Position numbers and translations under genes: made by a program. From contig JAUISW010000001.1 of assembly GCA_030434875.1 (NCBI GenBank), positions 1,685,501 to 1,749,500 of the forward strand: 64,000 nucleotides of DNA. The letters are read 5' to 3'. The notes under the pieces are model-generated. The model was given only the letters and a program-made list of their open reading frames with translations, did not search any database and was not told the origin of the DNA. Positions 10,450 through 48,407 of the stretch are shown here, in pieces. The stretch's first letter is position 1. Each line of letters starts with the position of its first letter. Source of the stretch: Lachnospiraceae bacterium C1.1 (lineage in GTDB: Bacteria > Bacillota > Clostridia > Lachnospirales > Lachnospiraceae).

Positions 10450-10481
10450 ATTATTCCCCTTGTAGCAATTATGCTTTACTT

Positions 10482-15042: not shown

Positions 15043-18000
15043 CTAAACCTTAAACTTTCTCATAATCTCAATATTAATTGGAGATAACTCTATAACCTGT
15101 TTACTTCGTGACCTCTCATGCATTCCATGAGATATCTGCGTCGTCAGAACTATATTCTTTCCATCAAATTCCGACTTAATTAATGTACTTCTTAGCCTCT
15201 GGCAACAATACGTGCATGCTACGGTAATGATATATGGCACATATTTATTTGTGTCAGGGTTTTCATTTTCAAATAATATGATTCTGCGACTGTGCTTATT
15301 CTTTGTATCTTCTCCATAATCAAATATTTCCAGCGGAATATCTGAACAAATTGGACAGAATACATCGTAACTTCCTCTTGCCGTTAGTAGTCTATACATG
15401 ATTTCCACATCATCGACTCTCGGCACATCATTTCCACATACATCCGCCCAATCCAAGACAAGCTTTTTTCGAATCTTAGCCAAATTTCTGCGTCTAGACA
15501 TATAGTTCATGGTTTTTGTAGTATTGCCGTTATGGATATACCCTTCGAGTAACGCAAGATTCCTTGTGCTTACATCCATCTGCTCCAACACACTGTTAAC
15601 CGCCTTCTGAAAATCATTAGTAATATTATCATAGAAAATATAAATATTCTTATCTTCTGAATTACAGCATGCAACCTCTCTGAATTTCTTCGAGGCATCC
15701 ACTTTTACCGCACATACACCATTGCCAAAAAAGGCAAGGATTTTCCTTCTTGTATTCGACAGGAACCTATAAAGATGAATCTTGTATCCAGTTATTTTGT
15801 AGATAAACTTGATATTTTCAACCGGCATCTCATTATTACTATTTTCGAAAATCTCTTTAATCTGAATATCTTTAGGCCCAAATTCATCAAGTAGATAAGT
15901 TGTCTTTTCACCCTCAGGAATATCAGTGATTACTGGAAGTACCTGCTCCGCCATGTTCCTAGTAGTGATTATATCTTCACAACAGGTTATGTGAATATAG
16001 TTCTTAAGATTCTCCGGAAGATCCATTCTGTATTTAACAGCACTGATAAAATCCGAAAATGATTTCAAACTCATATTTCGGATGCACGACAGCTGTATAA
16101 TCTGCTGCTCATCAATCGTGTAACTCTTAAATTGATAGTCTCTCCTCCACATACCTTTCGCACGTGTCTCAAATAACTTCAGAATGGATCCATTTAACCA
16201 AAGACCTGTAAATTTAGGATCCGTAGCCATTCTTTCCAGAAGCAGTTGTGGCTCAGACAATTCCTCCATTGCATTCTTTGGTTCGGTCATTTTATAATAA
16301 TCATAGGTTCCATCCCATCCAGTTACAGACCTACCACACGGACGGATACACCGAATCATGTAATGGTTTATTTTGTTACCATCATCAATATATCTTTTCT
16401 TAAGAAGCTCCTCCTTAAGCTGAAGATACTTTTCATCGTAGAACTTATTCTGATATTGAGCCAGCAGACCGCTACTTTCTATAAGAGTCCCATTGAATAA
16501 ATAATCTTTAAAGCTAAGATTTATCTGTCTTATACTTCCATCATAGGCAATTGCATCATTCAACTCATATCTACCTACGTACTTTAAGAAAAGCTGTGCA
16601 TTGAAATATTTCCCGGTTTTCTCTTTCATAAGAAATAACCAGTTGTCTATTTCCGCATCAGTTACATTAGCTGTTGTCTTTCGCTCTCCTGAAATAGCGT
16701 ATACTAGAAAATCTTTAACACAGCCAAAGTAATTTACAATCTTCTCTACAGCCTCTCGATTCTCGTCCGGTATCTCAACGTTTGGATCAGAGAGTGCTTG
16801 ATATATCTTTCTTACACCTGAAATGCAATTCTCATTTGTCAAAAGCTGTCTTAAATCATACGCTGACTTCTCTTCAATATATTCAAAATAGGTTTCTCTT
16901 AATTCCCGTGTGATATCACCCTCTTTATATGAAGCTTTATCAAAGGCCTCCTTATCATTATGAACCACCACATATGATTTTGCCTTTTCCCCTATTACCT
17001 TTGGAAGTCTCGCATTGTCATAGTATGCTTCATGCAGTGGTGTCTCCCAATAATCTCCACTGTCAACCAAAAGATATCTGCCTACTATAGAGTGAAACGC
17101 ATCACTTATTTCATTAGCACATGAAAGCATAGCTGCATCTTCTGAGCACATAAACCCATACAGATTCTTCAGATATCCTCGTATCTTATTATAAACAGCA
17201 TTGATTGAATCCTCACTATCACCCACATCATTTCTATGAATGTTTGCATACTTTGTATCAATGAGCATGCCCATTGGAAGAATTTGGTTCTGCATATCAG
17301 CCTTCAGATAATATGTAGCATACATACGATTTGCTTCTGTCAGATGCTCTCCTACCGGAAAAGCTGCCGATATTCCATCATAACTAAAGACTACATATTT
17401 ATTCTCGTATTTCGAAGCATTATCAACACGCATCGTCAGTGCGACTAATCCTGTTCTCCAGTTCTCACCATCGTACTTCACGTCTTTAATTCTTATTTCT
17501 TCTCTACAAGTAATTTCAATATTATGAGCGGATCCATAAAACTTCAAGTTAGAGATGTTTTTATTATTACGTGAATTTATCATCATAAAAATGAGTGAGC
17601 GGATATCAAATACCAGATCTGCATCCGATTCTGTAAGAAAGCATTTTTCTACATCCATATTTTTATATCCACACAAATAATCGATAAGTGCTGTCAACTT
17701 TCCTACGTTAAACGAACTCTCATATTCAGGATTGTAGGTTATAGAAAGGATCGTATTCCTTCCATCCCACTTTGGGTTAATGGTTGTCTTTCCATATACA
17801 TCATTATCATCTCTTTTACGCTGAATCATAAAGTCAAATAAAACATTGCTCTCTATCTTTAAGGTATCGACAAACTTGAAAAATGACTTAATACCAACTC
17901 CAAATTTACCAGTCTGTCCTTCCCCCTCTGACTTATCGGACATTTCTCGATTAAGGAAAGCATATATATTTGAAAGCATAAAGCCTTTATCTTCATACTC

Positions 18001-18336
18001 ACAATTAAGAGAATACTCACCATTATTTCGTGAAACCTTAAATTCTATGAATTCACCACAGTGTAGATCATTTGCATTCTGAACGATTTCATTAAAATAC
18101 CCTTCGCTATATCCTTGCAGCGAAGAAATTCCCTTTGCTGCAGACGTGGCTCTACAAATAGTCTCTACCAGCTTGCACCTATTCGACTCAAAGAACTCTT
18201 CCAACCACGCTGGTTTCTTGCCTTTTCCTTCCACAAGGTACTGATTGGCATGATTGACGGCATCTGCATAATCTGATGGCATGTTTTCAATTTTTACGCC
18301 CTTCGCGAGCATTTCATTTATATTCTGATAATGCAT
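15043..18336 (-). CDS. Hsp90/sacsin-like GHKL ATPase with C-terminal zinc ribbon
   Basis: Residues about 60-260 form an Hsp90-type ATP-binding domain: N-box EIVQNANDL (82-91), G1 box YEDKGFM, and GKFGVGIKSFF (143-153). This resembles sacsin and the ATPases of defence loci rather than HtpG. A long helical body follows, and near the C-terminus a CPIC ... CTYC zinc ribbon is visible in SYDVFCPICSD and VACTYCCQRL. The 1,097-residue protein is the last gene of the operon, 27 bp after the helicase gene, with an AAGGAG site. GHKL proteins paired with helicases are recurrent in anti-phage systems. I infer that it acts together with the helicase as a sensor or remodelling module. Confidence 0.88.
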   Translation of the reverse strand: MHYQNINEMLAKGVKIENMPSDYADAVNHANQYLVEGKGKKPAWLEEFFESNRCKLVETICRATSAAKGISSLQGYSEGYFNEIVQNANDLHCGEFIEFKVSRNNGEYSLNCEYEDKGFMLSNIYAFLNREMSDKSEGEGQTGKFGVGIKSFFKFVDTLKIESNVLFDFMIQRKRDDNDVYGKTTINPKWDGRNTILSITYNPEYESSFNVGKLTALIDYLCGYKNMDVEKCFLTESDADLVFDIRSLIFMMINSRNNKNISNLKFYGSAHNIEITCREEIRIKDVKYDGENWRTGLVALTMRVDNASKYENKYVVFSYDGISAAFPVGEHLTEANRMYATYYLKADMQNQILPMGMLIDTKYANIHRNDVGDSEDSINAVYNKIRGYLKNLYGFMCSEDAAMLSCANEISDAFHSIVGRYLLVDSGDYWETPLHEAYYDNARLPKVIGEKAKSYVVVHNDKEAFDKASYKEGDITRELRETYFEYIEEKSAYDLRQLLTNENCISGVRKIYQALSDPNVEIPDENREAVEKIVNYFGCVKDFLVYAISGERKTTANVTDAEIDNWLFLMKEKTGKYFNAQLFLKYVGRYELNDAIAYDGSIRQINLSFKDYLFNGTLIESSGLLAQYQNKFYDEKYLQLKEELLKKRYIDDGNKINHYMIRCIRPCGRSVTGWDGTYDYYKMTEPKNAMEELSEPQLLLERMATDPKFTGLWLNGSILKLFETRAKGMWRRDYQFKSYTIDEQQIIQLSCIRNMSLKSFSDFISAVKYRMDLPENLKNYIHITCCEDIITTRNMAEQVLPVITDIPEGEKTTYLLDEFGPKDIQIKEIFENSNNEMPVENIKFIYKITGYKIHLYRFLSNTRRKILAFFGNGVCAVKVDASKKFREVACCNSEDKNIYIFYDNITNDFQKAVNSVLEQMDVSTRNLALLEGYIHNGNTTKTMNYMSRRRNLAKIRKKLVLDWADVCGNDVPRVDDVEIMYRLLTARGSYDVFCPICSDIPLEIFDYGEDTKNKHSRRIILFENENPDTNKYVPYIITVACTYCCQRLRSTLIKSEFDGKNIVLTTQISHGMHERSRSKQVIELSPINIEIMRKFKV

Positions 18337-18363
18337 TTCATCAACTCCTTCCTGCCGTCAATT

Positions 18364-21351
18364 CTATCTCCATGCTTTTCCCGCGCGATATTCCTCCACT
18401 GTCGATCTATGAATCATCCCATCTTTGTAGCAGAATATTCCTTCAGATGAGAAGCTCTTTAATTCCTCATCATCAAATACACACTCATCTATCAGATCAA
18501 TTATATCTGCAATCTGCTTTTGGATACTCTTTCTACCGAGTGACACTTTTCGATTAAGCTCTGAATCATCTACATGTATCTTCTGTTCTTCTCCTTCATC
18601 CCAAGATTCAACGCCTACAAACACTTCGCTGTTTTCATCGAGCTTAATGAGTCCCACTATTGCCAACCAGTTATTGGCATTCTTTTTTGCCTCCAAGAAC
18701 GTCCTGTATATCCTCTGATAGGCTGTTCTCTCTGGTCTCGTCTTTTGCCAGTATTCAAGATATTCATTCAGCAACATATAATATTCTTCAGAAATCCGGT
18801 CATTTCTTTCCTGCGACAATGCCTCTACTGCGCTCAATCTCAGGTTTCTTCCAAGTTTTTCGATATACTGCCAAAGTGGATCATTATTTATCTTTTTTTC
18901 ATACTGCCTTATATTTTTCCTTAGTTCTTTCATTCGCTTTTCATTTTCTTCTGAGAGCACATATTCTTTCTTAAAACACTCCAAAGAATCTCGAATCGCT
19001 TTCCCATTTCTTTTTATAAACTCAGGATAATATAGAACAGTATTTCTTATTGGCATAAACTGACATGTAATATCTATCTTAGTGGTGCAGTAATACAACA
19101 TACGATTAATTTCCATGTCATTCTCATCAGATTTGCATTCATTAAGAAGAAAAATCATATCTCTAGCCTTTTCTTCCTTCGTAGTATCTATCCTATCTAT
19201 TCGACCAAAGCGCTGTTCAAGCTCGATACTTGTAAATGGTAATTCGTAATGTATAACCCCATCAAACTCTCCTAGATTCAAACCGGTTCCTCCGGTTTTA
19301 CCCGTTGTAATAAAAACAGTTCTCCTTCCCGACCTCAATGCTTGCATTAATGTATTGATAAGCTGACCATCCTGAACATTCTCAAGTCCGTACTGGTTCT
19401 CAAATTTGCCATACTTTTCCGCGACTACACAATCCGTAAATGAATCCTTAATAACATTGAACAGTCTGTCTACCACAAATTTATGTTCGCAAAAAACAAT
19501 ATATGATTTATTATTTTCAGACAAAAGCGCTATTAATCTCTCTATCTTCCCGTTTTTCTTTACTCCGTGGATATTGACAAAGCCATATTGCTCTGCTGCA
19601 CAGTAAAGATACTCGTCATCTTGGTCGTACTGAAGCGCTGCAAGTGTTCCCTTTTCTTCTTTTATCTGAGAAAAGACATCATCCCGTTCATTCCAACGTT
19701 TGCAGGAAACGAAGCGAATTTTTCTTTCTGCCGACCGCTTATCCATATCTTCTCTAAACCAGTTAACGTATACATCTTTTTCATCCGGTTCAGCTTTGTT
19801 AATAGGATTAATATCATGAAATTCCTGCTTCTGTGTAATCTCAGAGACGAGCCCTATATAATCATCAAAAAGGCGTGTTCCCTTCGCATTCACTACAATA
19901 GGAGTAGCAGTAAGCAGCATTGCCCGCTCTGCTCTGATTCCAAAATAATTATTGAACGAAATATGCGCCTCATCAATCACAACAATATTCCAATATAAGT
20001 CATCCGAATAATCCTCTATTGAACCTTTCAATGCTGAATATGGCCCGTCTTTATCTGATCCCTGTTTTTGTCCTACAATAAAAATTAGGTGTTCATCTTT
20101 CTTAAAAAAGGCTTTCTTTAAAGATCCCTTATACATTGATCCATCGTCACCCTGCTCAACTATATGAGCATACCGGCCCAACTGCCTGCGAATATCGCTT
20201 TGCCAATCCTCCCTTTTGTTGTATGGACACACAATCAGAATTCTTGCCCTTTCGTCAGCCTCTATGCAACGCTGAATATTATTTCTAATCTCATATAAAG
20301 CTGAAACAGTCTTGCCAGTACCAACTTCATCCATGACAATAGAAAAACCGTTTTTTTCCACCTGTTCTGATGCCAGCTTCTGTTTTTCATAGTATATAAC
20401 ATCCAGCATGGGCTGATTACCATTCCAGAAGATATCAAAAACATTATGTCCTTCCAAATCCACATTATCCGTATATTCCATCAGCTCATCAATATGCTCA
20501 ACCTCATCAAGCAAATCAAAAATTCTGGAGCTTATATCAGTCGTGTTCTTATCATCGTATGCTTCCAAATAATTAAGATTCCACTTTGCACAGACTAATG
20601 GAGTGATCCATTCATAGTCCTCCGGACCTGCAAAATGCATTGCTGCCTCTATCTCATCATCTGAAAGAGCATCAAAAATCGCAGAAACAATATCAAATCT
20701 CCGAAATACGAAAGCATAATGAATCAAAGAAAATGGCATACCTTTTGAATAAAGTGCCTGGCACTGCTCATAGCTGCATGGAATCTCTAATCCAGCTGCT
20801 AATCTATATTCCTTAGGCCGTATCAAATCTATACTATAGTTCATATAGATTTTCTGATCAGCATCAAGCGTATTTGTTCTATTCTCTGGAGCCTTTTTTT
20901 CCGGCAGCGCAAGTCTAATCTCATCATATAATTCTTCTTCGATATAAAAATCATGGCATTCTTGACAATAGTAGCCACTAATTTTCTTTTCTACTCCCGC
21001 ATATATAAATAAGCCATTCTTGACATACTCCAATGGCTCCTGGTCTTTATAACATGTATCAGGAATAAAAGGTTCCGTGTAAGACTTTAGTTCTTTAAGC
21101 TCTGTACAAATAATTTCCACAGAGTCATCTTCACAAACAGGTTCGTTCTCTATGTTTACAACTTTCTTTGACCCATAATCAAAAGCCATTCCTGTCTGTA
21201 CAGCATCAGTATGAATATAGTACATACCACATTCTTCACAATAGAATATCGGCTCATTGTTAACAGTTCCATCCTTACTAATGGGTATAGTCTTGTTTGA
21301 ACTAATAATCTTATTATGTTCAGGGCATTTTATCTTCCATCCTGATGTCAT
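18364..21351 (-). CDS. SNF2-like superfamily-2 helicase with N-terminal zinc fingers
   Basis: The N-terminus has Cys/His pairs (KCPEH, YCEECG at 38-41, YCQECH at 129-132) suggesting two zinc modules. About 200 helical residues follow, then the SF2 core: Walker A MDEVGTGKTVSAL (340-352), IDEAH, LLTATPI, motif V TGGTGLNLGEFDGVI and motif VI EQRFGRIDRI, in the SNF2/RapA order. It should translocate on duplex nucleic acid or strip proteins from it. It starts 13 bp after the preceding Hsp70 gene and is followed by the Hsp90-like ATPase gene, so the two are probably partners. No nuclease motif was found within it. Confidence 0.92.
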   Translation of the reverse strand: MTSGWKIKCPEHNKIISSNKTIPISKDGTVNNEPIFYCEECGMYYIHTDAVQTGMAFDYGSKKVVNIENEPVCEDDSVEIICTELKELKSYTEPFIPDTCYKDQEPLEYVKNGLFIYAGVEKKISGYYCQECHDFYIEEELYDEIRLALPEKKAPENRTNTLDADQKIYMNYSIDLIRPKEYRLAAGLEIPCSYEQCQALYSKGMPFSLIHYAFVFRRFDIVSAIFDALSDDEIEAAMHFAGPEDYEWITPLVCAKWNLNYLEAYDDKNTTDISSRIFDLLDEVEHIDELMEYTDNVDLEGHNVFDIFWNGNQPMLDVIYYEKQKLASEQVEKNGFSIVMDEVGTGKTVSALYEIRNNIQRCIEADERARILIVCPYNKREDWQSDIRRQLGRYAHIVEQGDDGSMYKGSLKKAFFKKDEHLIFIVGQKQGSDKDGPYSALKGSIEDYSDDLYWNIVVIDEAHISFNNYFGIRAERAMLLTATPIVVNAKGTRLFDDYIGLVSEITQKQEFHDINPINKAEPDEKDVYVNWFREDMDKRSAERKIRFVSCKRWNERDDVFSQIKEEKGTLAALQYDQDDEYLYCAAEQYGFVNIHGVKKNGKIERLIALLSENNKSYIVFCEHKFVVDRLFNVIKDSFTDCVVAEKYGKFENQYGLENVQDGQLINTLMQALRSGRRTVFITTGKTGGTGLNLGEFDGVIHYELPFTSIELEQRFGRIDRIDTTKEEKARDMIFLLNECKSDENDMEINRMLYYCTTKIDITCQFMPIRNTVLYYPEFIKRNGKAIRDSLECFKKEYVLSEENEKRMKELRKNIRQYEKKINNDPLWQYIEKLGRNLRLSAVEALSQERNDRISEEYYMLLNEYLEYWQKTRPERTAYQRIYRTFLEAKKNANNWLAIVGLIKLDENSEVFVGVESWDEGEEQKIHVDDSELNRKVSLGRKSIQKQIADIIDLIDECVFDDEELKSFSSEGIFCYKDGMIHRSTVEEYRAGKAWR

Positions 21352-21364
21352 TTCAATTCCTCCA

Positions 21365-22828
21365 TTAACGAACCTTTACATCCTTATCATAAGCTGTTCC
21401 GGTTTTTAGATCTCGAGAGCTTACATGGAGTACTCTGTTCTTATCAAAATCAAATGTAATTTCTACCGTTGGTACACCTGCTAGTGCATGTTCAATTCCA
21501 TCATGGCTATACTTATCATAGAAAAAGTCATTTGAGATATCCTCTGTATCCTCCCCCTCATATATTTTTACCATTATCGATTTCTGATAATCGCTTACCG
21601 TCGTATAATCACCACTCAGTTTACACGGATACTCAGTTCCCTTCGGAAGAATAATACTGAATCTATCACCAACAACTTCTACTCCAAATGCATGTGACAA
21701 TATGTTTTTAACAACAATCACTTTATCTTTTATAAGAGTTTTATCGCCAGTTGCCTTAATTGCGGCACCAATAGCTACAAGCTTAGAGAGATCCTTATCT
21801 GAATATGTTTTTTTGTTAAAAATTCTCTGAACCATATCACGAACCGCCAGTATGTTTGAGGACCCTCCAACAAGGATAACCTTATCTATGTCATCAACCC
21901 CACAATCAGCGTCATTCAGGCATCTCTTAATAATACTTTCAATACGATCTAGCAATTCCTCTGCTCTATCAACAAACTCATTTCTGGTAATTGGAAGTCT
22001 AAAATTAACTGCTCCGTTGTCTTTAGGAATAAGTGAAGGTATAATAATCTCTGTTTCTTCCATAGCTGATAATTCAATCTTGGCCTTCTCACACTCAAAC
22101 TTTAGCTTTCTCATAATCTGCTGATATAATTTATTATCCAGACCCGACTTGTCAAGACTTGAAAGATTCATGCCTGTATCTCTTCGAATCTGTCTTAAAC
22201 ATAGTTCAACCATTGCCTTATCAAAGTCATCACCACCAAGTCTACGGTCACCATCAACATTAATCGTCTTAAATTCGTTTCCATCAATACTTAAGATTGA
22301 TACGTCAAACGTACCACCACCAAGATCTATGACAAATATCTTCTGATTCTCATCCGCATCCATACCATAAGCGATAGATGCTGCCATAGGCTCCGGGAGA
22401 ATCTCAATAACTTCAAGACCAGCTGCTTCTGCAGCTCTTTCAGTCTCACGATACTGTTTAGACGTAAAATATGCCGGTACCGTAATTACCGCTGCACACT
22501 CATCAGCGCCATAGGTTTTCTTTGCTTCCTTAACAACTTCTTTAAGAATATTTTCAGCAACTTCTGTGGGGGTAAATGTACGATCCTGAATTTCCCATAC
22601 CTTTTCATCTTCGCCCATATAGGTTTTGGATGAAATAATGACATTTTCCGGATATGTAATCGCCTTTTTTTTTGCAGAATCACCCACCATAATCTTTCCA
22701 TCACGATAATAAAGCACCGACGGAAGAAGATCCTTCCCCTTAAACTTTACAAAATCTAAAGTATTATCAAACCTGCAACAAACCGTATTGGTCGTGCCCA
22801 AATCTATGCCCAGTAAGACTTTTAACAT
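21365..22828 (-). CDS. Hsp70-type chaperone without lid (Hsp70 E)
   Basis: The first 370 residues are a complete Hsp70 ATPase domain: GIDLGTTNT (phosphate 1), VITVPAYFTSKQ, VIDLGGGTFDVSI (phosphate 2) and ILVGGSSNI (adenosine). A short substrate-binding beta domain ends at residue 487, so the helical lid and C-terminal tail of DnaK (about 630 residues) are absent. Of the five Hsp70s in the operon it is the closest to DnaK. It has its own good ribosome site, 4 bp after the helical-repeat gene. Without a lid, substrate capture should be weak or should depend on a partner, perhaps the helical protein just upstream. Confidence 0.93.
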   Translation of the reverse strand: MLKVLLGIDLGTTNTVCCRFDNTLDFVKFKGKDLLPSVLYYRDGKIMVGDSAKKKAITYPENVIISSKTYMGEDEKVWEIQDRTFTPTEVAENILKEVVKEAKKTYGADECAAVITVPAYFTSKQYRETERAAEAAGLEVIEILPEPMAASIAYGMDADENQKIFVIDLGGGTFDVSILSIDGNEFKTINVDGDRRLGGDDFDKAMVELCLRQIRRDTGMNLSSLDKSGLDNKLYQQIMRKLKFECEKAKIELSAMEETEIIIPSLIPKDNGAVNFRLPITRNEFVDRAEELLDRIESIIKRCLNDADCGVDDIDKVILVGGSSNILAVRDMVQRIFNKKTYSDKDLSKLVAIGAAIKATGDKTLIKDKVIVVKNILSHAFGVEVVGDRFSIILPKGTEYPCKLSGDYTTVSDYQKSIMVKIYEGEDTEDISNDFFYDKYSHDGIEHALAGVPTVEITFDFDKNRVLHVSSRDLKTGTAYDKDVKVR

Positions 22829-22832
22829 ATAT

Positions 22833-24254: not shown

Positions 24255-24262
24255 AACGCCTC

Positions 24263-25942: not shown

Positions 25943-25962
25943 ATAAAACTAACCCCCTTGGC

Positions 25963-27654: not shown

Positions 27655-27668
27655 TATTATCCTATCTC

Positions 27669-29159: not shown

Positions 29160-29950
29160 CAGTCTTTCCTCCTCCATATTCTGGCACAGCCGTCACAGAT
29201 TTTTACTCCATCGGTAAAAAAATATGGATATCTTCGAATTTCATCTATCTTGTCAAACTTCTGAAAGTCATTTGTGAAGTTTTCCGCTGAATCTGGTGTA
29301 GGTTCCATAAGCTCAGGATCCAAAGCATCTCCTACCCTTACAACTTTAGTCTCTACTCCATTTTCAGCCAGAAACTTATTAATCTCACGAATCACCATTT
29401 CATACACCGGACCCGCATTATTGCCGACGCGTTCATACAGACCATCAAACAGCACGATAATATATTTACCGATGATGTCCGAAAATAGTTGCCTGAGTTC
29501 ATCCTGTATTTCGCCTATTGTCGAAAGTTCTTTAAACTTCGACATTTGCCTCTTTCTTTGCGTCGAATACACATTTAGGCACTTATCAACTGCCATAGCA
29601 TAACCATCCAGGCTTTTCTTTGTCTCATCATCAAGCTCACCGTTTTTATCAAGCAGCTCGTCCATATTCCCGAGCAGTGTAGTCAGCCTTTCATCAAATA
29701 AATCGAGAATACCTGGCAAATCATCATAACAATTACAGTTTTTATAAATAGGTTCTACTTTTTTTTCGATAAAAAAAGCTTCTAACACACCAACCGACGC
29801 TTCATCCGTCGCGACTTCATTCTTAGTAATCCACTCTGGCACAATAATTCTAAGTTTAGATTGAAAAAAATCTCTAACTTCTTTCAGAAGTTTTTTGCTC
29901 TCCTGATGATCATATTCCTTATCCGCCTTAAATATCGTTAAATTCGCCAT
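29159..29950 (-). CDS. GrpE-like exchange factor with Cys pair (NEF 2)
   Basis: The 263-residue protein is mostly helical with a central coiled coil. It ends in NGVETKVVRVGDALDPELME followed by IDEIRRYPYFFTDGVKICDGCARIWR. The pattern (DPEL-ME, then I-EI-R-YPYF-DGVKI) follows the GrpE head (FDPxxHEAV ... TVxEVLRxGYxLNGRVLR). A terminal CDGC could bind a metal. The GGGAGG site and the ATGA overlap with the next Hsp70 gene show tight coupling. An 80-bp gap separates it from the previous gene, the largest inside the operon, without an obvious terminator. Confidence 0.6.
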   Translation of the reverse strand: MANLTIFKADKEYDHQESKKLLKEVRDFFQSKLRIIVPEWITKNEVATDEASVGVLEAFFIEKKVEPIYKNCNCYDDLPGILDLFDERLTTLLGNMDELLDKNGELDDETKKSLDGYAMAVDKCLNVYSTQRKRQMSKFKELSTIGEIQDELRQLFSDIIGKYIIVLFDGLYERVGNNAGPVYEMVIREINKFLAENGVETKVVRVGDALDPELMEPTPDSAENFTNDFQKFDKIDEIRRYPYFFTDGVKICDGCARIWRRKD

Positions 29951-30029
29951 ATCCTGTATCCTCCCTTTTTTATTCTAATGTCTTGTATCATCTACCGCAA
30001 AATGGCAGCTTTACTCTAATTATGTAGTT

Positions 30030-32867
30030 TTACTGTTCAAGCTTTGTCAGCAAAAACTGTTCCTCATCTACATTAAGCAAATCACCGTTAACCATTTTTA
30101 GGGCAATTGCCTTTGTCTTATCCTGCTTCATTGCAACAAGAGTATTGTATATATCGCCCACATCACTAATAGTTTCAAAAACCTCATGAATCAGTTCTGA
30201 AGATAATTCAGAGGCACTTTCTCTCTGATCACAAATCCATCCAAGTGCTAAAAGACAGCATGCAAGCTCTTCGCCACTAAGATTCCCTGACCGAACAACC
30301 TCACACAGCTTGGATACAATCCTACCTTCAGCCGATGCTGACAAAATCTTAATATCGGAGTCTTCTTTTCTAAGCGCTACACCAATTGCATATGAACTAA
30401 ATTGAATATTGTTTCCTAATCCACTAATGGATTTCTTTACATCAGCCTCAAATTCATCCTGTAGCCACTGTATATCTGTTCTGGTCTTGGCATGTGTATA
30501 TAGACAAGCCTGCAAATACCTTGTCGTGCCATGAAGAGAAGCCAATTTGCTCAGCTGATCCATGCTTGCACATATACTTAAAGCATATATTGCCTGAATA
30601 TTAGTTGAAATCTTTGGTCCTCCCCCCATTGAAAATCCGTTAATATCTGCACTTATTTGACTCATGCATGCCATAGCCAAGCGGCGTTTTTCTGATTCAT
30701 TCCAATTCTGTCCTACCTTTCTAGCTATCGTAAAAAGTCTCTGTCTTGGTTCCTCTGACGATACACTTTCAAGTGCTTCTAGGACCACCGAAGCAAATTC
30801 CTCTTTATTTCCAGCATTACATATACTGCTCACGCAAGCTGAAATACGCTTTGCTATATTACTTTTTTCCTGCTTATTACGGCATCGCTCGTAATTCTGA
30901 CAAAGTTGAAGCATATTATTAATTTCCTGCTTAGGCTGTAACATTGCACCATCAGGAGCTAAAATCTTGGTCTTAATCCTTGATTTTTCTCCATTATCTA
31001 TATCTATATCTGCATACCCTTCCTCTATTTTTTCCATTCCAGCATCATCCTTACTTGTCCATGCCTTCATAGTTATAACTTTGTTGCTACCCATATAAAT
31101 CTGAAAAGCAACAAAAGCGCCATTATAATAATGCTGATTGAAAGAAATATTTCCACTAGCAATTGTTCTATATGAACCATCCAAGTTCTGGCTCTTTATA
31201 GGTATTGCAATCATATTCTGACCAGGTTCAACCTTAAATCCTGTCATAATGTTGGACGTATATGGCAGCTCAGCTCCTGTCGGAATAATCTCATGGACAG
31301 CCCCATTTTTTACTCCAAGGTAAAGACAGTCGTTTAATATATTGCTGCCCCACTGTATTGCCATATGTGTAGTTACCGCAGATAAATTTTCCTTTGGAAC
31401 CATTCTTTCTTGAGAAGCATCTGTATTGTATGAATTTACATCAATATCACTACCTGTCTTTCCAAGAAGTTTCATATCATCCTGCATCTCTTCATATTTG
31501 TGAAGATAGTAATGATAAACTGCGGCTCCTCGCGCAACAGCCTGATCAGGATCAAGCGCTACTATAGGTTCAAACCCAAAGAACTCTTTTAACCTATCTG
31601 TAACCATGTAAAATTTTGACATGCCACCATTTACAATTACTGCATCTACGATTGCATCCTCAACGGACAGTTTATTAGCTGCTTTCTTCAAAACGTCCAA
31701 AATCGGATAAATAATATTTCTAGTATCTGTAATCTTTTCAATTTGTTTGTAATCATTATAAGAGAGATCAGGTGCCATAAAGACTGACAAAATTTTTTCT
31801 ACTTCTTCTTTTGTAAAGGTATCATCATATGAATAACCGATGCCGCCCATATTTCCACCTGTAGGAATTTCAATCTCATCTTCCGGATCATCCCAGCCAG
31901 AATTGTAATCATCTCCACATCTTTCGTTCAAATCCAGTTTCAAATGCTCAGCATAAACACGAAGCTGCGGCAGAATAACCTTTTCCTCTTTGCGAAGTTT
32001 TGCTACTACATCAGGATGGCTCGCATACTGTTTTAAGTATCTTTCAAACATTGTTTTGGCTATTTCTTCATCAAAATCATCGCCTCCAAGCAATGTATAT
32101 CTATTTGTAGCAATCTCATCTACTTTTAAGACGTCAGGATTATCTTCACGTCTCTTGATCTCATGCATCGTGATATCCAATGTACCGCCACCAAGGTCAA
32201 ATACTAGGACTCTTTTTTTCTCATTCAGATCCATTATTCTGTCTGGGATTTCACCATTATGAATCTGATTAATAAGGTCATAAATGACTGCATTAGGTTC
32301 TGAAAGAAGTACTGCTCTTTCACTTCCATCGACATTTTTAACCTTTATCCCAGCAAGTTCTGCTGCATCTCTTGTCGCTTTACACATGGCAGAATCAAAG
32401 TTTGCCGGTACGGTAATAACTGCATCTGTAATATCACACCGTTGGGTCTTTGATGCCTCACGAATCATATGTTTTAAAATTCTAGCAGATATTTCTGCAG
32501 GAGTCTTATCTGGTACATCTGTTGATAAGCCCTCAGCTACAGGCTTCCCCATCTGGCTTTTGATAGATTTGGCTACCAAATGAGGTCGCAAGGGATATTG
32601 CATCTTTGCAAAGTCACCAACAAGAGGTTCGTAATTTTTCTCTTGCCTATAATAAACGCAAGATGGTAGCGTTGGCTTTTTCATATTTGTCAGTTTTGCC
32701 TCACCTGACATAAGATTGTACATATCTACAGCACGCTGTATTTCGACAACCTTGCTTACTATATCACCATTTCTTTTTTCATTAATAATAGCAAGCACAG
32801 AGTTTGTTGTACCAAGGTCAATACCTACACAAAGATCATTGTGTCCCTCAAGCTTCAAATCAGCCAT
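30030..32867 (-). CDS. Large Hsp70-type ATPase with C-terminal helical extension (Hsp70 B)
   Basis: Residues 12-450 carry the Hsp70 ATPase motifs (CVGIDLGTTNSVLAII, AVITVPANFDSAM, LVFDLGGGTLDITMHEI, VIVNGGMSKFYMV). A beta-sandwich-like region follows (about 500-640). The last 300 residues are helical and repeat-like, rich in Ala, Cys and Leu (CLLALGWICDQRES), reminiscent of HEAT repeats. At 945 residues it is far larger than DnaK. Its start overlaps the stop of the GrpE-like gene (TAATG) with an AAGGAG site inside that gene. The helical extension may recognise the signal or client; this is inference. Confidence 0.92.
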   Translation of the reverse strand: MADLKLEGHNDLCVGIDLGTTNSVLAIINEKRNGDIVSKVVEIQRAVDMYNLMSGEAKLTNMKKPTLPSCVYYRQEKNYEPLVGDFAKMQYPLRPHLVAKSIKSQMGKPVAEGLSTDVPDKTPAEISARILKHMIREASKTQRCDITDAVITVPANFDSAMCKATRDAAELAGIKVKNVDGSERAVLLSEPNAVIYDLINQIHNGEIPDRIMDLNEKKRVLVFDLGGGTLDITMHEIKRREDNPDVLKVDEIATNRYTLLGGDDFDEEIAKTMFERYLKQYASHPDVVAKLRKEEKVILPQLRVYAEHLKLDLNERCGDDYNSGWDDPEDEIEIPTGGNMGGIGYSYDDTFTKEEVEKILSVFMAPDLSYNDYKQIEKITDTRNIIYPILDVLKKAANKLSVEDAIVDAVIVNGGMSKFYMVTDRLKEFFGFEPIVALDPDQAVARGAAVYHYYLHKYEEMQDDMKLLGKTGSDIDVNSYNTDASQERMVPKENLSAVTTHMAIQWGSNILNDCLYLGVKNGAVHEIIPTGAELPYTSNIMTGFKVEPGQNMIAIPIKSQNLDGSYRTIASGNISFNQHYYNGAFVAFQIYMGSNKVITMKAWTSKDDAGMEKIEEGYADIDIDNGEKSRIKTKILAPDGAMLQPKQEINNMLQLCQNYERCRNKQEKSNIAKRISACVSSICNAGNKEEFASVVLEALESVSSEEPRQRLFTIARKVGQNWNESEKRRLAMACMSQISADINGFSMGGGPKISTNIQAIYALSICASMDQLSKLASLHGTTRYLQACLYTHAKTRTDIQWLQDEFEADVKKSISGLGNNIQFSSYAIGVALRKEDSDIKILSASAEGRIVSKLCEVVRSGNLSGEELACCLLALGWICDQRESASELSSELIHEVFETISDVGDIYNTLVAMKQDKTKAIALKMVNGDLLNVDEEQFLLTKLEQ

Positions 32868-33957
32868 TATTTTTCTCCTTTACCTTAGGTCTTGAAATCT
32901 GTACTTCTTTGTCCTTATATACCCAGCCTGGAGAAACAACCTCAACTGTTTTCTTTTCATCAGGTGAGCTAAATGGAGTTCCCTCATAATTACAAAACTC
33001 CACATCCGATGCAATTACCTCTCTAATCGAGTTAATGCGCATAATTGGCTCTATGTGACTATCTCTTACAAACTGTATCAGTTTCTTTACCATAATCAAC
33101 AGTCCATTAATCTCTATCGGAAGCTCGTAGTTACTTTTTCTAAGTTCGTCTACTCCCTTACGTACTACGAGTAACTCGTCAAGTATACAGCCATATTTTT
33201 CAGAATTAAGTCGTGCAAAAAAGTCTGCAAGTTCCTTTACTTTACTTGCTTCAAGCTGTTCGGCAAACTCATCCTGTAAATCCTGAAGCATCGTATTGGT
33301 TCTATCAAGAGTGTTCTCGAGCTGCTCAACTCTTCTAAGCGCTTGTTCATAAGAAAGCTTACTTACAGTATCTTTTGACTGTTGCCTCTTTTTTGTATCA
33401 TGATACTGCGGAAAACCATACGCATCACATATAGCATCAGCTATATCATAAAAATAATACCTAGCGAGCGTATTACCCAGCAAATGTAATGAATCCACCT
33501 CATTAAAAAGATCGATTTCCGGATACCTTTCGTATATCATGATTGCAGCAATTCTTTCCTGCGAATCATGCCTCTTTCCATTTCTTAAAGCAGGCTCCTT
33601 ACGCTGCTTTTCAAAACAATCAAATGCCTCTCTCTTACCCTGAATTGCGCTGGCAAACTGTTCAACAACCCCATCTGCCCACTGTAACAATTCCTTTCTT
33701 TCATTGGGATTTGCCATTCTTCTGTTTCTAAATATTTGTATCACTTCATCCCCTGTCAAATCACAACCATATGTCTCATTCATAAGTATCGCAGTTTTGG
33801 TGGGTTCTATATCAAAATCTCTGCAAAGAAGAGAAAAAATACGATTCTCTACAACAATATCTTCCTTTATTCGACTCCCCCTTTTTATTTTTCGCTGCAT
33901 AGCCTCATGCATGCTATGAATAACTTCTTTGACCTTTGAATTATCAATGTTAATCAT
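32860..33957 (-). CDS. GrpE-like exchange factor with N-terminal helical domain (NEF 1)
   Basis: About 200 N-terminal residues form an unknown helical domain. A coiled coil (about 205-260, LEQLENTLDRT-type heptads) and a four-helix-like segment come next. The last 50 residues read FCNYEGTPFSSPDEKKTVEV then VSPGWVYKDKEVQISRPKV, which is clearly the GrpE beta-domain pattern (TVxEVLRPGWRYxDRVLRPAxV). This is the most convincing of the three GrpE-like proteins. It overlaps the 945-residue Hsp70 by 8 bp. Known GrpE function is ADP release from Hsp70; I infer the same here for the partner encoded next. Confidence 0.72.
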   Translation of the reverse strand: MINIDNSKVKEVIHSMHEAMQRKIKRGSRIKEDIVVENRIFSLLCRDFDIEPTKTAILMNETYGCDLTGDEVIQIFRNRRMANPNERKELLQWADGVVEQFASAIQGKREAFDCFEKQRKEPALRNGKRHDSQERIAAIMIYERYPEIDLFNEVDSLHLLGNTLARYYFYDIADAICDAYGFPQYHDTKKRQQSKDTVSKLSYEQALRRVEQLENTLDRTNTMLQDLQDEFAEQLEASKVKELADFFARLNSEKYGCILDELLVVRKGVDELRKSNYELPIEINGLLIMVKKLIQFVRDSHIEPIMRINSIREVIASDVEFCNYEGTPFSSPDEKKTVEVVSPGWVYKDKEVQISRPKVKEKNNG

Positions 33958-33993
33958 CTTTATCTATTGCTCCTGTCTTTTGTATGTATCGTA

Positions 33994-35142
33994 CTAAACC
34001 TGGTAAATCTCACTATCCTCTGCGAAAATGAACTGCGTCCTGCAATCACCATCGAGCATCATTTCCTGTTCAATCGTCTGGTCAAAAACAGAATTTTCCT
34101 TTCCGCAATGGACAATAACTGCTAGTTTTGGATTTAACTTTTTAATAAACATACTCATATCCGAAAAGTCCTCATGTAATGAGAAATCCACTCGCAAATT
34201 TCTGTATGCATTTGCATGGTCAGATTTCCTAGAAGTAATATAAATATGCGGTTCTCTCGGTATAAATTCTCCAATGGGTCTGTTATTCTGATTAAGAATA
34301 GGAACAGAAAGCCGTTCCATTTTCTCAATCATAGTCATTACAGACGCATCAAGGTAAATTGGCACCTGAGATGTATTCCACTCATTAAGTGCTTTCAAAA
34401 ACTCAATACCCTTGCTTAATTGTGATACCCGACAACATATTGACTGTCCATCCATTTCCACACACCTCAGTATGTAATTAATCTCCTTATACAAGGTATT
34501 TGATTTTTTTGAATACTCCGGATGTTTCGCATGTAGACCACACATTATCATTGTATCTATATTAAGACCCTCTGGTATGGTACACCCCTGTGTAAGCATC
34601 GTACTGCTTAAAGAATAATCTCCTGTATAAAGTACCTTTCTCTTCCCTATTTCAAACATCATCATCATAGCTCCGGGTATGTGGCCAGCTGGATAGAATG
34701 TTACCTTATATCTTCCGAAATCCATAGTCTGCATAAAACTAACAGGTGCCACTTTTTCAAGAAGGCTTTTTGCTGCCAGACGGGATTCCTCCTGATTGTT
34801 ATTGCTCCCTATAAAAGCTCGATCATACAACTGATAGCCTGCCAAAGCCCTGGTTATTTCTGTCATGTAAACAGATGCATGATCCGCCTCGCACATCAAA
34901 TTTAAGAGACTCCCAATATGATCCATATGAGCATGCGATATGAAAATCTGATTAATCTGACTCATGGACTGTACGAATGGTGATGTTTTCAAGCTATGAA
35001 AATCAGGTTTGAATTCTATATCTCCATCAACTCCCGTACCTGCATCCAATATCACATTTGCACCATTGATGTTCAAATAATAGCAGCTGGCACCAACTCG
35101 TTGACCGCCTCCCAAAGGGATAAATGTGATATTATTATTCAT
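33994..35142 (-). CDS. Metallo-beta-lactamase/beta-CASP nuclease
   Basis: The signature FISHAHMDHIG (HxHxDH, residues 70-75) with GHIPGAMMMM, LYTGDYS and a terminal VIVHCGKE supplies the metal ligands of a metallo-beta-lactamase fold. The segment DFSLHEDFSDMSMFIKKLNP corresponds to beta-CASP motif B (FSAHAD). This places it with CPSF73/RNase J-type RNases and DNA-end nucleases. At 382 residues it is shorter than RNase J and lacks its C-terminal domain. It lies second in the operon, between the PIN-containing Hsp70 and a GrpE-like gene, and is probably one of two nuclease activities in the system. It ends with TAG. Confidence 0.88.
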   Translation of the reverse strand: MNNNITFIPLGGGQRVGASCYYLNINGANVILDAGTGVDGDIEFKPDFHSLKTSPFVQSMSQINQIFISHAHMDHIGSLLNLMCEADHASVYMTEITRALAGYQLYDRAFIGSNNNQEESRLAAKSLLEKVAPVSFMQTMDFGRYKVTFYPAGHIPGAMMMMFEIGKRKVLYTGDYSLSSTMLTQGCTIPEGLNIDTMIMCGLHAKHPEYSKKSNTLYKEINYILRCVEMDGQSICCRVSQLSKGIEFLKALNEWNTSQVPIYLDASVMTMIEKMERLSVPILNQNNRPIGEFIPREPHIYITSRKSDHANAYRNLRVDFSLHEDFSDMSMFIKKLNPKLAVIVHCGKENSVFDQTIEQEMMLDGDCRTQFIFAEDSEIYQV

Positions 35143-35173
35143 GTTCTCCTCCCTATGGTTCTAACAGGTTACA

Positions 35174-37453
35174 TTACATCATACTTTGACGATTGATAGA
35201 CATGTTTCCTTTGTCTACGATGGCTCCGTCTTTCTTGATAAGAGTAACATCCGTCTTCAGTTCATACTGTTTTGTTATTTCAAATCTAACAACAACGTCA
35301 ACTTCGTCAATTTTCATCGGAGGTATATTAGTCATGATTAACTCATCCAAGTATTCCACCCCTGGATCATAAGTCTTCTGTGCTTCCTGTGCCTCACTAT
35401 TACGAGAAAGAACTTTTATGTTAAGTTGCGCCTGCTCATCCTCAACAAGTGAATACTTCTTTTCTGCTGTTGCCGGAAGAGTTGTTCCTGCTGGAATAAT
35501 GCAACTGTAGTTCCACTTCTCAAGAGCTACACCGAAATCCTCGTAGGTCATATCAAATACCTGCGGCTGCATCTTAATCAGATGATTCTCACCAAACATA
35601 TAATCTGCAATTATAGCAGCACCTTCTGCAATAAGTGTTGCTGCATTCTTATCCGCGGATGGCTTTCTTCCAAAATAGCGCTCTACCTGTTCGTTGATGC
35701 ATGGAATTAGAGACGTACCACCGGCAAGAATAATGTTATCTACATCTGAAATCATCATGTCTGCCTTGCTTAAACCATTGTTCATCTCTGCGATAGTCTG
35801 GTTTATAGTCGGCTTAATAATGCTTTCAAACTCCTGACGACTAAGATCAATAAACACCGACTTCTGCTCATCATCCGAAATATAAATATCCATTAACGTC
35901 ATTGTAGTATTCTCACTGGCACTCAGCTCCATCTTACAGTTTTCAGCAGCCCAGTAGATTGTCTTGACATTATAAACATAGTGCTCATTGTTCAGCTCGG
36001 AATCTTCTTCAGAATACATTGACAAATCATAGTGGTCTTCGAGGTAGTCGTATACATATTCTTCAACTTTCTGAGTCAAATCCTCACCACCAAGTTTGGA
36101 ATTACCCGCTGTGGCACAAACCTCAAAGTTTCCCTCTCCATCAGATTTAATAATTGATACATCAAAAGTCCCTCCGCCAAAATCATAAATAAAAGTCGAG
36201 GTTTCATCATTAGCATCAATGTTATAGGCAATTGCCGCTGCTGTAGGTTCCTTCTCAATATGAATTTCTGTAAAGCCTGCGTCCAGCCCTGCTTTCCTTG
36301 TGTTTTCTATTTCTACTATATTAAAGGTCGCAGGAACAGTAATAACAGCTTTGCTGACAGTTTCCTTTATGGATTTCTCTGCTTCCTGCTTCAGATATCT
36401 TAAAAACATAGTAGTTGCCTCTGTACCAGTCAGTTCAAATTCATCATACTTAGATTCATTTAGTCTTTGTGTATTGAATTCTTTTAATGATACTCCATGA
36501 ACCCCAACAAACGAAGCCTTTAGCTTAGCAAGTCTGTTATCAGATGAAATCAAGGTAACATTTTGTTCCTTATACTTAAGAGCTATGCTCAAAATTTTGT
36601 TGTCATTATTTGCGTTGTTAAAGTCTTCCGAAAAATTCTTAAAGAAATCCTCTGGAAGAATAGATATATCAGATTCGACGAACTGGATGACATCGTGATG
36701 ACTTGTGATTTCTTCAAGAGCTCTTTCTGCAGAGTATTTGGTATTAATATCACTTACTCTGTACTCAAGCTCCTGTTCAACAGTAATCGGTAATATTATC
36801 ACATCCGTTTCTGAGAAGCATTCTAATATTTCCGGCTGATCAATAAAAACATTTGTATCAATGACATAATATCTTCTACCATCTTTCCCCACATGTCCAA
36901 CCTTAGGAAGTCGCACTTTTATCCTGTCAGAATCTGTACGAAGATGCTTTTTAAAGAGTGAAATAGCTGCGCCCTGACTCATAGCCTTAGCGTAAGACTT
37001 AGCTTTCTTCCCGTAGAAAACAGTATCCTTGTCTTTAAAAAAGATAAATGAAGGAATGAGAATCTCATTCTTTACTTTTAAAAACTTTACTGCACCATTT
37101 TTATCAATATATGCAATTACGGAGTTCGTTGTACCTAAATCGATACCGATTGCTCGACCTGAAAAATCATTGCCTTCTTCCTCTGACTCAGCTTTTTCAT
37201 TGTCTTCATCATTCTCAGATTCGCTATCAGAAGAATTGGTAGTTCTTGAATCATTTTCTGGCTCTGGTCTTTCAAAATCAAAACCTCCATCCGAATCATA
37301 TTCTTCTTCGGAAAAATCGGACGGTGTCTCTGCATCTTCTTCTGAGTAAGATTCCTGTGAAGAATTATCTTCATCTACTTCAGGATCCACATCAAAAAAT
37401 AGCTCATCATCGTCCTCAAAGTCTTCTGGGTTAAATCCAAATTTATCTTCCAT
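35174..37453 (-). CDS. Hsp70 with a PIN nuclease domain inserted in its ATPase domain (Hsp70 A)
   Basis: The start is ATG at 37451-37453 (MEDKFGFN), seven bases after AAGGAG; seven further codons are open upstream. Residues 1-97 are an acidic, disordered tail. The Hsp70 ATPase begins at IGIDLGTTNSVIAYI (about 102) and pauses after LFKKHLRT (about 172). Residues 195-325 are a PhoH/VapC-type PIN domain: YVIDTNVFI (Asp199), TVEQELE (Glu226), NNDNKILSIA (Asp284) and LISSDNRLAK (Asp305). The ATPase then resumes (ELTGTEATTMF, VITVPATFN, FIYDFGGGTFDVSII, ILAGGTSLIP) and a beta substrate domain ends the protein. All four acidic PIN residues are kept, so RNase activity gated by Hsp70 conformation is plausible. 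Confidence 0.9.
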   Translation of the reverse strand: MEDKFGFNPEDFEDDDELFFDVDPEVDEDNSSQESYSEEDAETPSDFSEEEYDSDGGFDFERPEPENDSRTTNSSDSESENDEDNEKAESEEEGNDFSGRAIGIDLGTTNSVIAYIDKNGAVKFLKVKNEILIPSFIFFKDKDTVFYGKKAKSYAKAMSQGAAISLFKKHLRTDSDRIKVRLPKVGHVGKDGRRYYVIDTNVFIDQPEILECFSETDVIILPITVEQELEYRVSDINTKYSAERALEEITSHHDVIQFVESDISILPEDFFKNFSEDFNNANNDNKILSIALKYKEQNVTLISSDNRLAKLKASFVGVHGVSLKEFNTQRLNESKYDEFELTGTEATTMFLRYLKQEAEKSIKETVSKAVITVPATFNIVEIENTRKAGLDAGFTEIHIEKEPTAAAIAYNIDANDETSTFIYDFGGGTFDVSIIKSDGEGNFEVCATAGNSKLGGEDLTQKVEEYVYDYLEDHYDLSMYSEEDSELNNEHYVYNVKTIYWAAENCKMELSASENTTMTLMDIYISDDEQKSVFIDLSRQEFESIIKPTINQTIAEMNNGLSKADMMISDVDNIILAGGTSLIPCINEQVERYFGRKPSADKNAATLIAEGAAIIADYMFGENHLIKMQPQVFDMTYEDFGVALEKWNYSCIIPAGTTLPATAEKKYSLVEDEQAQLNIKVLSRNSEAQEAQKTYDPGVEYLDELIMTNIPPMKIDEVDVVVRFEITKQYELKTDVTLIKKDGAIVDKGNMSINRQSMM

Positions 37454-37474
37454 ATTTTTTCTCCTTTTATACAA

Positions 37475-37702
37475 AAGGGTATAGTATCCCCTTGGTCAAC
37501 CTAATTTCTCTTAAAAAAGGGTACACTAATCCCTTTATTATTGAGAATATGCTTTGCAATGTGTGTTTCGGCTTTCCACACTTCCCGAATATCTCGAACA
37601 ACCTTGCCCTTAGTCGATATTCGTCGACTGCCAGTACATTCTTGTGAAGAGCTCTATCTGGCGAAGCTCTAACTAAACTACAACTACATGATGTATGTAT
37701 AC
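37475..37702 (-). ncRNA. Structured 5' leader of the chaperone operon
   Basis: Between promoter and first gene the transcript can fold several hairpins: AGAGCT...AGAGCTCT, AGTCGA-CGAATA-TCGACT, then two similar units near the gene, AAGGGATTAGTGTACCCTT followed by a U-run (about 37508-37535), and AAGGGGATACTATACCC (about 37478-37497). The first of the two looks like an intrinsic terminator or attenuator. A nine-codon ORF (MYWQSTNID) lies in the middle. These features suggest control by attenuation or by a repressor binding the GGG-N8/9-CCC palindromes. No known riboswitch class was recognised. Confidence 0.4.
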
Positions 37703-37732
37703 AGTATACGCATATATTTTTTTGGCTGTCAA
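37703..37732 (-). promoter_or_regulatory. Strong sigma-70-type promoter of the 12-gene operon
   Basis: On the minus strand TTGACA (37727-37732) and TATACT (37703-37708) are spaced by 18 bp with an A/T-rich spacer. Transcription should begin near 37696 and run leftward through all genes to 15043. I saw no comparably good promoter inside the operon. Confidence 0.8.
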
Positions 37733-37901: not shown

Positions 37902-38354
37902 TCAATCTAGAAAATCGTCTTCTTCATATTTATCAAAATTGGATTTCTCCTCACTTTCATTATTGTTTGTTTTCATTCTTCTCTTTTTTAAAGATTCCAT
38001 ACGGTCAAAAACATTTCCTTTTATATTTTTAAGAACTTTATCTACATCTATTTCTTTATTTTCGTCAATACCATTTCTCAATTTATATTTTTCCCACCAG
38101 TCCCACATATCATCATCACTTAGATTACGCCTTTTTTGTTTTCGACTTTGAATACGTCTTTTTTCTCGTTCTCTTTCTTTTTCAACATAAACTTCTATAT
38201 TGGAAATTCTTTTTTCTATTTTGTCTACACGTTCTTCAATGTTCTTAAGCAAATCAATTATTATTTCTAATCTATCCTTTGCTGAATTGTCTTGCTTTTC
38301 ATTTTGTTCTTTCCCTTGTGCATTCTCAAAAACACAATCTTTTATTTCACTCAT
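37902..38354 (-). CDS. Coiled-coil basic/acidic protein of unknown function
   Basis: An AAGGATAAGAAAT site starts a 150-residue, extremely charged protein. A leucine/isoleucine heptad coiled coil (about residues 30-65, DLLKNIEERVDKIEKRISNI) is followed by a strongly basic stretch (RRIQSRKQKRRN) and an acidic C-terminus. There is no cysteine cluster or membrane segment. It lies upstream of the chaperone operon promoter on the same strand, about 170 bp from the -35 box, so it could be a separate regulator or nucleic-acid-binding accessory. That is speculation from position only. Confidence 0.65.
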   Translation of the reverse strand: MSEIKDCVFENAQGKEQNEKQDNSAKDRLEIIIDLLKNIEERVDKIEKRISNIEVYVEKEREREKRRIQSRKQKRRNLSDDDMWDWWEKYKLRNGIDENKEIDVDKVLKNIKGNVFDRMESLKKRRMKTNNNESEEKSNFDKYEEDDFLD

Positions 38355-42379: not shown

Positions 42380-42382
42380 AGG

Positions 42383-48317: not shown

Positions 48318-48407
48318 GTATTCAACCCCTCCTAAATCAACCAATACTCCAAATCATATATCGGCATTTATTAGGAGAAATTTATAAGACATACATTTTA
48401 AATACAA

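Follow-up and report, generated by a model that had tools for sequence, protein, structure and literature searches.

Background

CoCoNuTs have been described as predicted RNA-targeting type IV restriction systems for which co-occurrence with type I restriction-modification (RM) is reported, and the Hsp70 ATPase motifs of their CnuD protein are partly degenerate (PMC11090510). Hsp70 and GrpE genes are also held by GTPase-centred conflict operons, a subset of which carry a second short Hsp70 (PMC7159879). Here we analyse an operon in a 64,000-nt stretch of DNA (the window, to which all window coordinates refer) from the 4.2-Mb genome of Lachnospiraceae bacterium C1.1, in which a PIN domain lies inside the ATPase domain of one Hsp70 and four further Hsp70 genes follow. 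The original prediction, made from the letters of the window, knew of no named system of this kind, and we likewise found no description of one in the open-licence literature, judged by titles and the openings of abstracts. We tentatively favour the reading that a seven-gene core with four Hsp70-family ATPases may form an ATP-switched RNA-cutting machine, likely directed against phages or mobile elements.

Results and discussion

A PIN-Hsp70 and its conserved core

On the minus strand, twelve genes separated by small intergenic gaps occupy 37453 to 15043, as read from the open reading frame (ORF) list and gene coordinates of the window (please see Table 1). The gaps are small, as predicted, and their actual range is -19 to +79 bp rather than -8 to 80 bp; the -19 gap becomes -1 if HspC begins at its second Met. 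Five of the genes match Pfam HSP70 (PF00012) above the gathering score, and the prediction of twelve same-strand genes with five Hsp70s, the first of them with a PIN domain, was thereby confirmed by ORF coordinates and Pfam. When the whole genome was searched with the HSP70 model, dnaK and the five operon genes matched over most of the model length, and three further partial matches of 21-58 bits were found elsewhere. The housekeeping dnaK and grpE are located at 203-206 kb of the source genome, apart from the operon.

The PIN_4 match of the first gene (59 bits) covers residues 203-329 of a 766-aa reading, inside the Hsp70 domain. That reading follows the ORF list in starting at a TTG at 37474; we prefer the ATG at 37453, which gives 759 aa and agrees with database entry P0001. 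In the alignment to DnaK, ~158 PIN residues intervene between DnaK residues ~67 and ~108, where the match breaks off and is taken up again. We take the interrupted region to be subdomain IB, the tip of which is replaced by the insert (residues ~183-340). GrpE binds the ATPase domain of DnaK, with subdomain IB as part of the contact surface, and opens the cleft. Both domains are present in all 96 database relatives listed, for one of which, P0096, a protein-kinase domain (PF00069) is also given.

A survey with the PIN profile gave 20 loci, seven of them with a true PIN-Hsp70, so that together with the window eight loci were compared. The seven are from the Lachnospiraceae SIG304, B67_67 and MA2020, Desulfobacterales GMC2, Desulfonema magnum, Peribacillus kribbensis and Candidatus Thiovulum stygium, and the loci span Bacillota, Thermodesulfobacteriota and Campylobacterota. 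Core genes accompany the PIN-Hsp70 in all eight loci and are found in none of the remaining 13, which have other PIN-like proteins. The expectation that the genes travel together was therefore upheld; the view of all twelve as one unit was not, the SNF2 and Hsp90-like genes and the metallo-beta-lactamase (MBL), HelA and HspB genes being optional modules. The core consists of PIN-Hsp70, a GrpE-like protein (GrpL1), an Hsp70 (HspC), a coiled-coil protein (GrpL2), an Hsp70 (HspD), a HEAT-like protein (HelB) and an Hsp70 (HspE). The order PIN-Hsp70, GrpL1, HspC holds in 8/8 loci, with MBL-HelA-HspB intervening after PIN-Hsp70 in the window and locus L033, the only two of the eight that have this module. 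HspD and HelB are found in seven of the eight loci and HspE in all of them, shortened in Desulfonema, where the operon contains two ISAzo13-type transposase genes (L039 13821-16789) of equal best scores and opposite orientation; this locus is in decay. An IS110-type transposase gene separates GrpL2 from HspD in SIG304. Thiovulum has the seven core genes without add-ons, followed by an aminotransferase gene, and its GrpL1 ORF is short (158 aa, 32 bits). The SNF2 and GHKL genes follow HspE in four of the eight loci, Lachnospiraceae only; GMC2 was not judged, as the contig ends there. In Peribacillus (L064), a second HspC-like Hsp70 is inserted ahead of HspE.

The system is rare and sporadic and not part of the core genome, in agreement with the original prediction that this is no housekeeping locus. 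With the window's own genome counted each time, HelB was matched in 2 of 195 relatives, 1 of 398 genomes of the phylum and 2 of 397 genomes of the family, one of the latter two being a 19-bit partial match, so that the family count is effectively 1/397. In the protein clusters, 19 longest contigs (the window's own included), matched by size, were common to the PIN-Hsp70 and HelB rows (chance 0.2), and 23 of the 46 HelB contigs of at least 10 kb match a PIN-Hsp70 or GrpL1 row in size. Other HelB contigs were left unmatched because the clusters list the longest contig only.

Sequence features of the core and module proteins

The four acidic catalytic positions of the PIN domain are conserved in 7/7 aligned loci (Desulfonema left out). 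The ATPase motifs of PIN-Hsp70 show one phosphate-1 variant, in GMC2. All Hsp70s of the window keep the phosphate-1, phosphate-2, catalytic Lys and Glu-Pro motifs in the alignment to DnaK, and in HspD and HspE the phosphate loops, the Lys70 equivalent and Glu-Pro are kept in 7/7 loci, one Thiovulum HspD phosphate-1 position excepted. The alpha-helical lid is absent in PIN-Hsp70, HspC, HspD and HspE, and HspB has its own C-terminal extension; in the same alignment a DVLLLD-type linker is unrecognisable in all five. A C-terminal region alignable to the DnaK beta-domain is retained after the ATPase domain. Because the lid is missing in four of the five and the linker is unrecognisable in all, classical client trapping is doubtful, and by lid and linker the operon Hsp70s would not be classed as canonical DnaK-type chaperones.

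No operon gene was matched by Pfam GrpE (PF01025) at E<=10, nor did any have a Pfam J-domain match. GrpL1 (263 aa) and HelB have no match in Pfam, PADLOC or NCBIfam. GrpL1 shows modest GrpE likeness in fold and profile comparison and is a probable divergent GrpE-like protein; where three GrpE-like exchange factors had been predicted, it is the one that gained such support, and the other two did not. HelA is a possible exchange factor, and HelB is predicted to be a HEAT-like scaffold. With its lidless Hsp70s, GrpE-like protein and helical scaffolds, the system looks more like a fixed assembly than like a chaperone that folds clients.

The nuclease, helicase and ATPase identities proposed for the module genes stood. 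The MBL protein matched Pfam Lactamase_B (51 bits) and, in NCBIfam, the beta-CASP RNase aCPSF1 (101 bits) and Cas14 (72 bits), below the equivalog cut-offs of 580 and 800. The SNF2 protein exceeds the cut-offs of Pfam Helicase_C and SNF2-rel_dom, and by curated equivalog score it is neither DISARM nor Dpd (DpdE 65 of 500 bits, DrmD 42 of 610 bits). The identity of the Hsp90-like protein is weak yet consistent, with 41.9 bits to the sacsin N-terminal ATP-binding domain (cut-off 50) and a match to Tiamat TmtA that is not full-length (PADLOC, 32.8 bits, profile positions 80-168 of 1486).

A structured leader RNA

The strong promoter predicted for the operon was confirmed at 11/12 consensus positions. 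It is the sole 11/12 site in the 12-kb stretch scanned, where 42 sites of at least 9/12 were seen against a shuffle mean of 45. Its -10 overlaps the palindrome GTATACTGTATAC (37697-37709), a possible repressor operator. The palindrome form GTATACwGTATAC, which lies on the -10 in the window, is found 14 bp behind the -10 in MA2020 (L035 7677-7689).

Between the promoter and the start of PIN-Hsp70, the window and L033 have in common an element of ~116 nt, a structured leader RNA that was absent from the original prediction. A covariance model (R1) built from these two found four further copies, a pair each in L034 and L035, with E-values of 1.6e-9 to 3.6e-18, which are rough, as are those of model R2. 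All four lie upstream of PIN-Hsp70 on the same strand, giving six copies in 4/4 Lachnospiraceae loci. The predicted structure consists of three hairpins, with two pseudoknots formed by the hairpin 1 loop with columns 40-44 and by the hairpin 2 loop with columns 85-90. Over the six copies from four loci, pairing is kept in 97% of 168 cells and both sides change in 14 of 28 pairs. Sliding the partners lowers pairing to 31-42%, and none of 500 shuffles reached the observed value; the count of further pair types was unexceptional (52/500 shuffles). Alignment A9 was fitted to the three hairpins, and covariation in the pseudoknot helices (3/5 and 5/6 pairs) is the stronger evidence because those helices lay outside the model. 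The initial reading of these helices came from two of the six sequences; with this taken into account, all 28 pairs were kept in 4 of 200,000 random placements.

Promoters of 11-12/12 end 33-35 nt before the AGCYTCGC of the element in the window, L033 and the first L035 copy, and none of that strength was found ahead of the L034 copies or the second L035 copy. Downstream of the element, a GGGA...TACCC-T-run motif occurs in two copies each in the window and L033; a variant follows each L034 copy once, and L035 has none. The hairpins before the T-runs are weak (-2.6 to -7.4 kcal/mol, in three of the four loci). The gene that follows the RNA is PIN-Hsp70 in both the window and L033, and is of the radical-SAM (NrdG-like) type in L034; in L035 the copies precede an RNase T-like gene and a small one that weakly matches a helix-turn-helix (HTH) domain. 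In MA2020, a small gene for a glycine-rich, zipper-like protein, recognised by eye, separates PIN-Hsp70 from the second RNA copy (L035 9045-9257).

Because the copies directly precede different genes of the cluster, we favour control in cis: the RNA is most likely a cis-acting expression control element that would tie operon output to the state of the machine. None of the 18 matches listed for Rfam 15 reached the gathering score, and with fast filters no convincing copy was found outside operon carriers in 195 relatives or 392 family genomes. A non-significant match of 9.1 bits (E 1.3, L036 276-377, plus strand), second of 19 listed, directly precedes the GMC2 PIN-Hsp70 and may be a diverged copy. 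The leader RNA offers a handle, as it predicts an RNA to seek in the complex and possible control of the operon.

Proposed mechanism and alternative explanations

On the favoured reading, the operon would be an undescribed mobile machine, probably a conflict system, whose PIN ribonuclease is gated by the Hsp70 ATP cycle. In this machine the PIN domain at the tip of subdomain IB would be moved or unmasked as ATP, ADP and exchange factor open and close the nucleotide cleft. The lidless partner Hsp70s, together with the HEAT-like and coiled-coil proteins, may form a standing complex that keeps PIN silent. A foreign or damaged RNA-protein complex would then shift the ATP cycle and release PIN, which would cut cellular or phage RNA, and the SNF2 and Hsp90-like module and the beta-CASP nuclease and HspB module may widen the target range. 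We suppose RNA to be the target because the nuclease set is PIN, beta-CASP-like and RNase T-like. A conflict role would fit the patchy spread across phyla and part of the gene neighbourhood; of the seven loci with flanks read, three show a conflict or mobile setting. The predicted association with defence was thus borne out in part, with defence neighbours in two loci and a relaxase in the third; the other four lie among transport, sugar, redox and housekeeping genes. If this gated nuclease is real, a nuclease inside an Hsp70 ATPase domain would make the best-studied chaperone clock an RNA-cutting switch, and four to five dedicated Hsp70s with a GrpE-like partner across three phyla would add the principle of a chaperone-cycle-gated nuclease to prokaryotic conflict biology.

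Several observations weigh against such a machine. A PIN domain may be inactive or serve a structural role. In GMC2, residues of the ATPase motifs are lost from HspC, with phosphate-2 altered and Arg in place of Lys, and fold and profile comparison did not show GrpE likeness for HelA or GrpL2. No defence neighbours were seen among the genes searched in B67_67, SIG304 (downstream), Thiovulum and Desulfonema. Searches for HelB in 72,556 plasmid and 50,697 phage records gave no match, PIN-Hsp70 was not found in viral contigs, and full scoring did not reveal the leader RNA in any of the four non-Lachnospiraceae loci.

The mostly intact ATPase motifs, the RNA-processing types of the three nucleases (RNase T-like, beta-CASP-like and PIN) and the four loci of seven without defence neighbours would also fit a specialised quality control of RNA and ribonucleoproteins (RNPs), in which the Hsp70s dissolve stalled or aggregated RNPs under stress and PIN trims the RNA. 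We consider this possible, on the unlikely side: the genes are rare and sporadic and yet spread in step over three phyla, and the housekeeping DnaK and GrpE are encoded elsewhere in the genome. It is improbable, in our view, that the Hsp70s instead sense foreign protein and relay the signal at the protein level, with the nuclease as a mere executor. The relay idea of the original prediction remains as an inference, and the region aligned to the DnaK beta-domain is kept after the ATPase domain; the missing lids and unrecognisable linkers make client trapping doubtful, and the operon has no J-domain match.

Two other explanations give the leader RNA a direct part. Type III toxin-antitoxin systems such as ToxIN and CptIN have a pseudoknotted RNA and a toxin of the ToxN/AbiQ type, and an excess of the pseudoknotted RNA might similarly bind and silence the PIN nuclease here. 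The order of promoter, pseudoknotted RNA, T-run hairpin motifs and nuclease gene in the window and L033 would suit this, as would the observation of the RNA only together with the operon. Nevertheless, the nuclease is a PIN and not of a type III toxin family, short tandem repeats are lacking, copies also precede RNase T-like, radical-SAM (NrdG-like) and HTH genes, and the RNA was not found in the four other loci, so that we regard this explanation as very doubtful. There is also a slim chance of an Hsp70-gated RNP immunity in which the pseudoknotted RNA binds the PIN-Hsp70 complex and guards it or serves as an RNA antitoxin; once phage enzymes cut, displace or titrate the RNA, the Hsp70 ATP cycle would be free to open PIN. 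If true, this would be an RNA-guarded, chaperone-clocked nuclease, and such immunity was not found described in the literature searched.

Feature coordinates and gene neighbourhood

Table 1 Features of the operon and its leader region in the window
Feature	Coordinates	Strand	Description
PIN-Hsp70	35174..37453	-	759 aa; PIN inserted in Hsp70 ATPase domain; acidic N-terminal tail; core
Beta-CASP-like MBL nuclease	33994..35142	-	382 aa; optional module; also in L033
HelA	32860..33957	-	365 aa; coiled-coil/helical protein; optional module
HspB	30030..32867	-	945 aa; Hsp70 with long C-terminal extension; optional module
GrpL1	29159..29950	-	263 aa; probable divergent GrpE-like protein; core
HspC	27669..29177	-	496-502 aa depending on start; lidless Hsp70; core
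GrpL2	25963..27654	-	563 aa; long coiled-coil protein that has a C-terminal domain; assigned to the core from its position and weak similarity
HspD	24263..25942	-	559 aa; lidless Hsp70; core
HelB	22833..24254	-	473 aa; predicted all-alpha HEAT-like protein; core
HspE	21365..22828	-	487 aa; lidless Hsp70; best scorer of the five against HSP70/DnaK models; core
SNF2-family helicase	18364..21351	-	995 aa; add-on in four Lachnospiraceae loci
Hsp90-like (GHKL/sacsin-type) ATPase protein	15043..18336	-	1097 aa; add-on in four Lachnospiraceae loci
Leader RNA element	37557..37672	-	three hairpins and two predicted loop-to-downstream pseudoknots
Promoter	37703..37732	-	TTGACA-18-TATACT (11/12)
GGG(G)A..TACCC-T-run motifs	37473..37534	-	two copies between RNA and start codon; weak terminator-like hairpins

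The type I RM system (39296-45393) and WYL regulator (47334-48344) predicted nearby are both present; a coiled-coil gene separates the end of the former from the promoter, a distance of 1.6 kb, and the latter lies farther upstream. The gene just upstream of the leader (37902-38354, minus strand) encodes a charged coiled-coil protein, and a protein weakly similar to it (29 bits) adjoins the GHKL gene downstream in MA2020 (L053 9219-9707). The upstream genes in MA2020 encode a MobA relaxase and a large helicase, the latter weakly matching a methylase. Peribacillus has an McrB-like AAA (PDC-M26A, 168 bits) and DUF2357/PDDEXK_7 upstream and, downstream (L064 8453-17609), an HNH (colicin-DNase/WHH)-SUKH pair, three dynamin-like GTPases and a TPR/Sel1 protein. 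B67_67 is flanked by a histidine kinase, IS66, radical-SAM (NrdG-like) and NrdD upstream and by transporters downstream; for SIG304, where the contig ends on the upstream side, the genes downstream are sugar-nucleotide and glycan genes. The flanks hold aminotransferase and other genes in Thiovulum, and methyltransferase and NAD-binding genes in Desulfonema.

Elsewhere in the window, a protein with Tubulin (159.6 bits) and FtsZ_C (60.5 bits) matches (9280-10539, minus strand) lies ~4.5 kb downstream of the operon. The product of 48924-49718 (minus strand), 11 kb upstream of the operon, has HPDI and a DnaJ-domain match below cut-off (20.8 bits), and could be a J-protein. An HTH_3 regulator and ImmA/IrrE-type peptidase pair, a pairing often on mobile elements, is found at 10596-11431 (plus strand). 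Near the start of the window are a UmuC-type polymerase (IMS, 95 bits; 4257-5687, minus strand) and a DDE transposase (7347-8798, plus strand).

Comparison with known systems

The closest named PIN family by sequence is the PhoH2 PIN-helicase, at 39 of the 680 bits required; there the PIN is joined to a PhoH ATPase, whereas in the operon it is inserted in an Hsp70. The similarity of the MBL protein to the beta-CASP nucleases aCPSF1 and Cas14 (type VII CRISPR) is far under the curated cut-offs, and no CRISPR gene was found among the window proteins searched. The likeness to type III toxin-antitoxin systems lies in order alone, a pseudoknotted RNA (here a computational prediction) preceding a nuclease gene. 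In contrast to them, the nuclease is PIN_4 and the operon has no ToxN-type Pfam match, the RNA is a single 116-nt element in one or two copies rather than short tandem repeats, and the operon is a multi-gene one built on ATPases. In the GTPase-centred systems, Hsp70 is accessory (PMC7159879); it is core in the present operon, and no GTPase match is found among the twelve genes, unlike in the HSP70/GTPase conflict systems (Kaur 2020); in the Peribacillus locus, genes for dynamin-type GTPases stand behind the core. CoCoNuTs resemble the operon in having an Hsp70-like ATPase, HEAT-like helical parts, coiled coils and RNases (PMC11090510). They are built on McrB/McrC, whereas none of the twelve genes here has an McrB-like GTPase or McrC/DUF2357 Pfam match, and the operon is distinguished from them by several Hsp70 paralogues, a PIN domain within an Hsp70 and mostly intact ATPase motifs.

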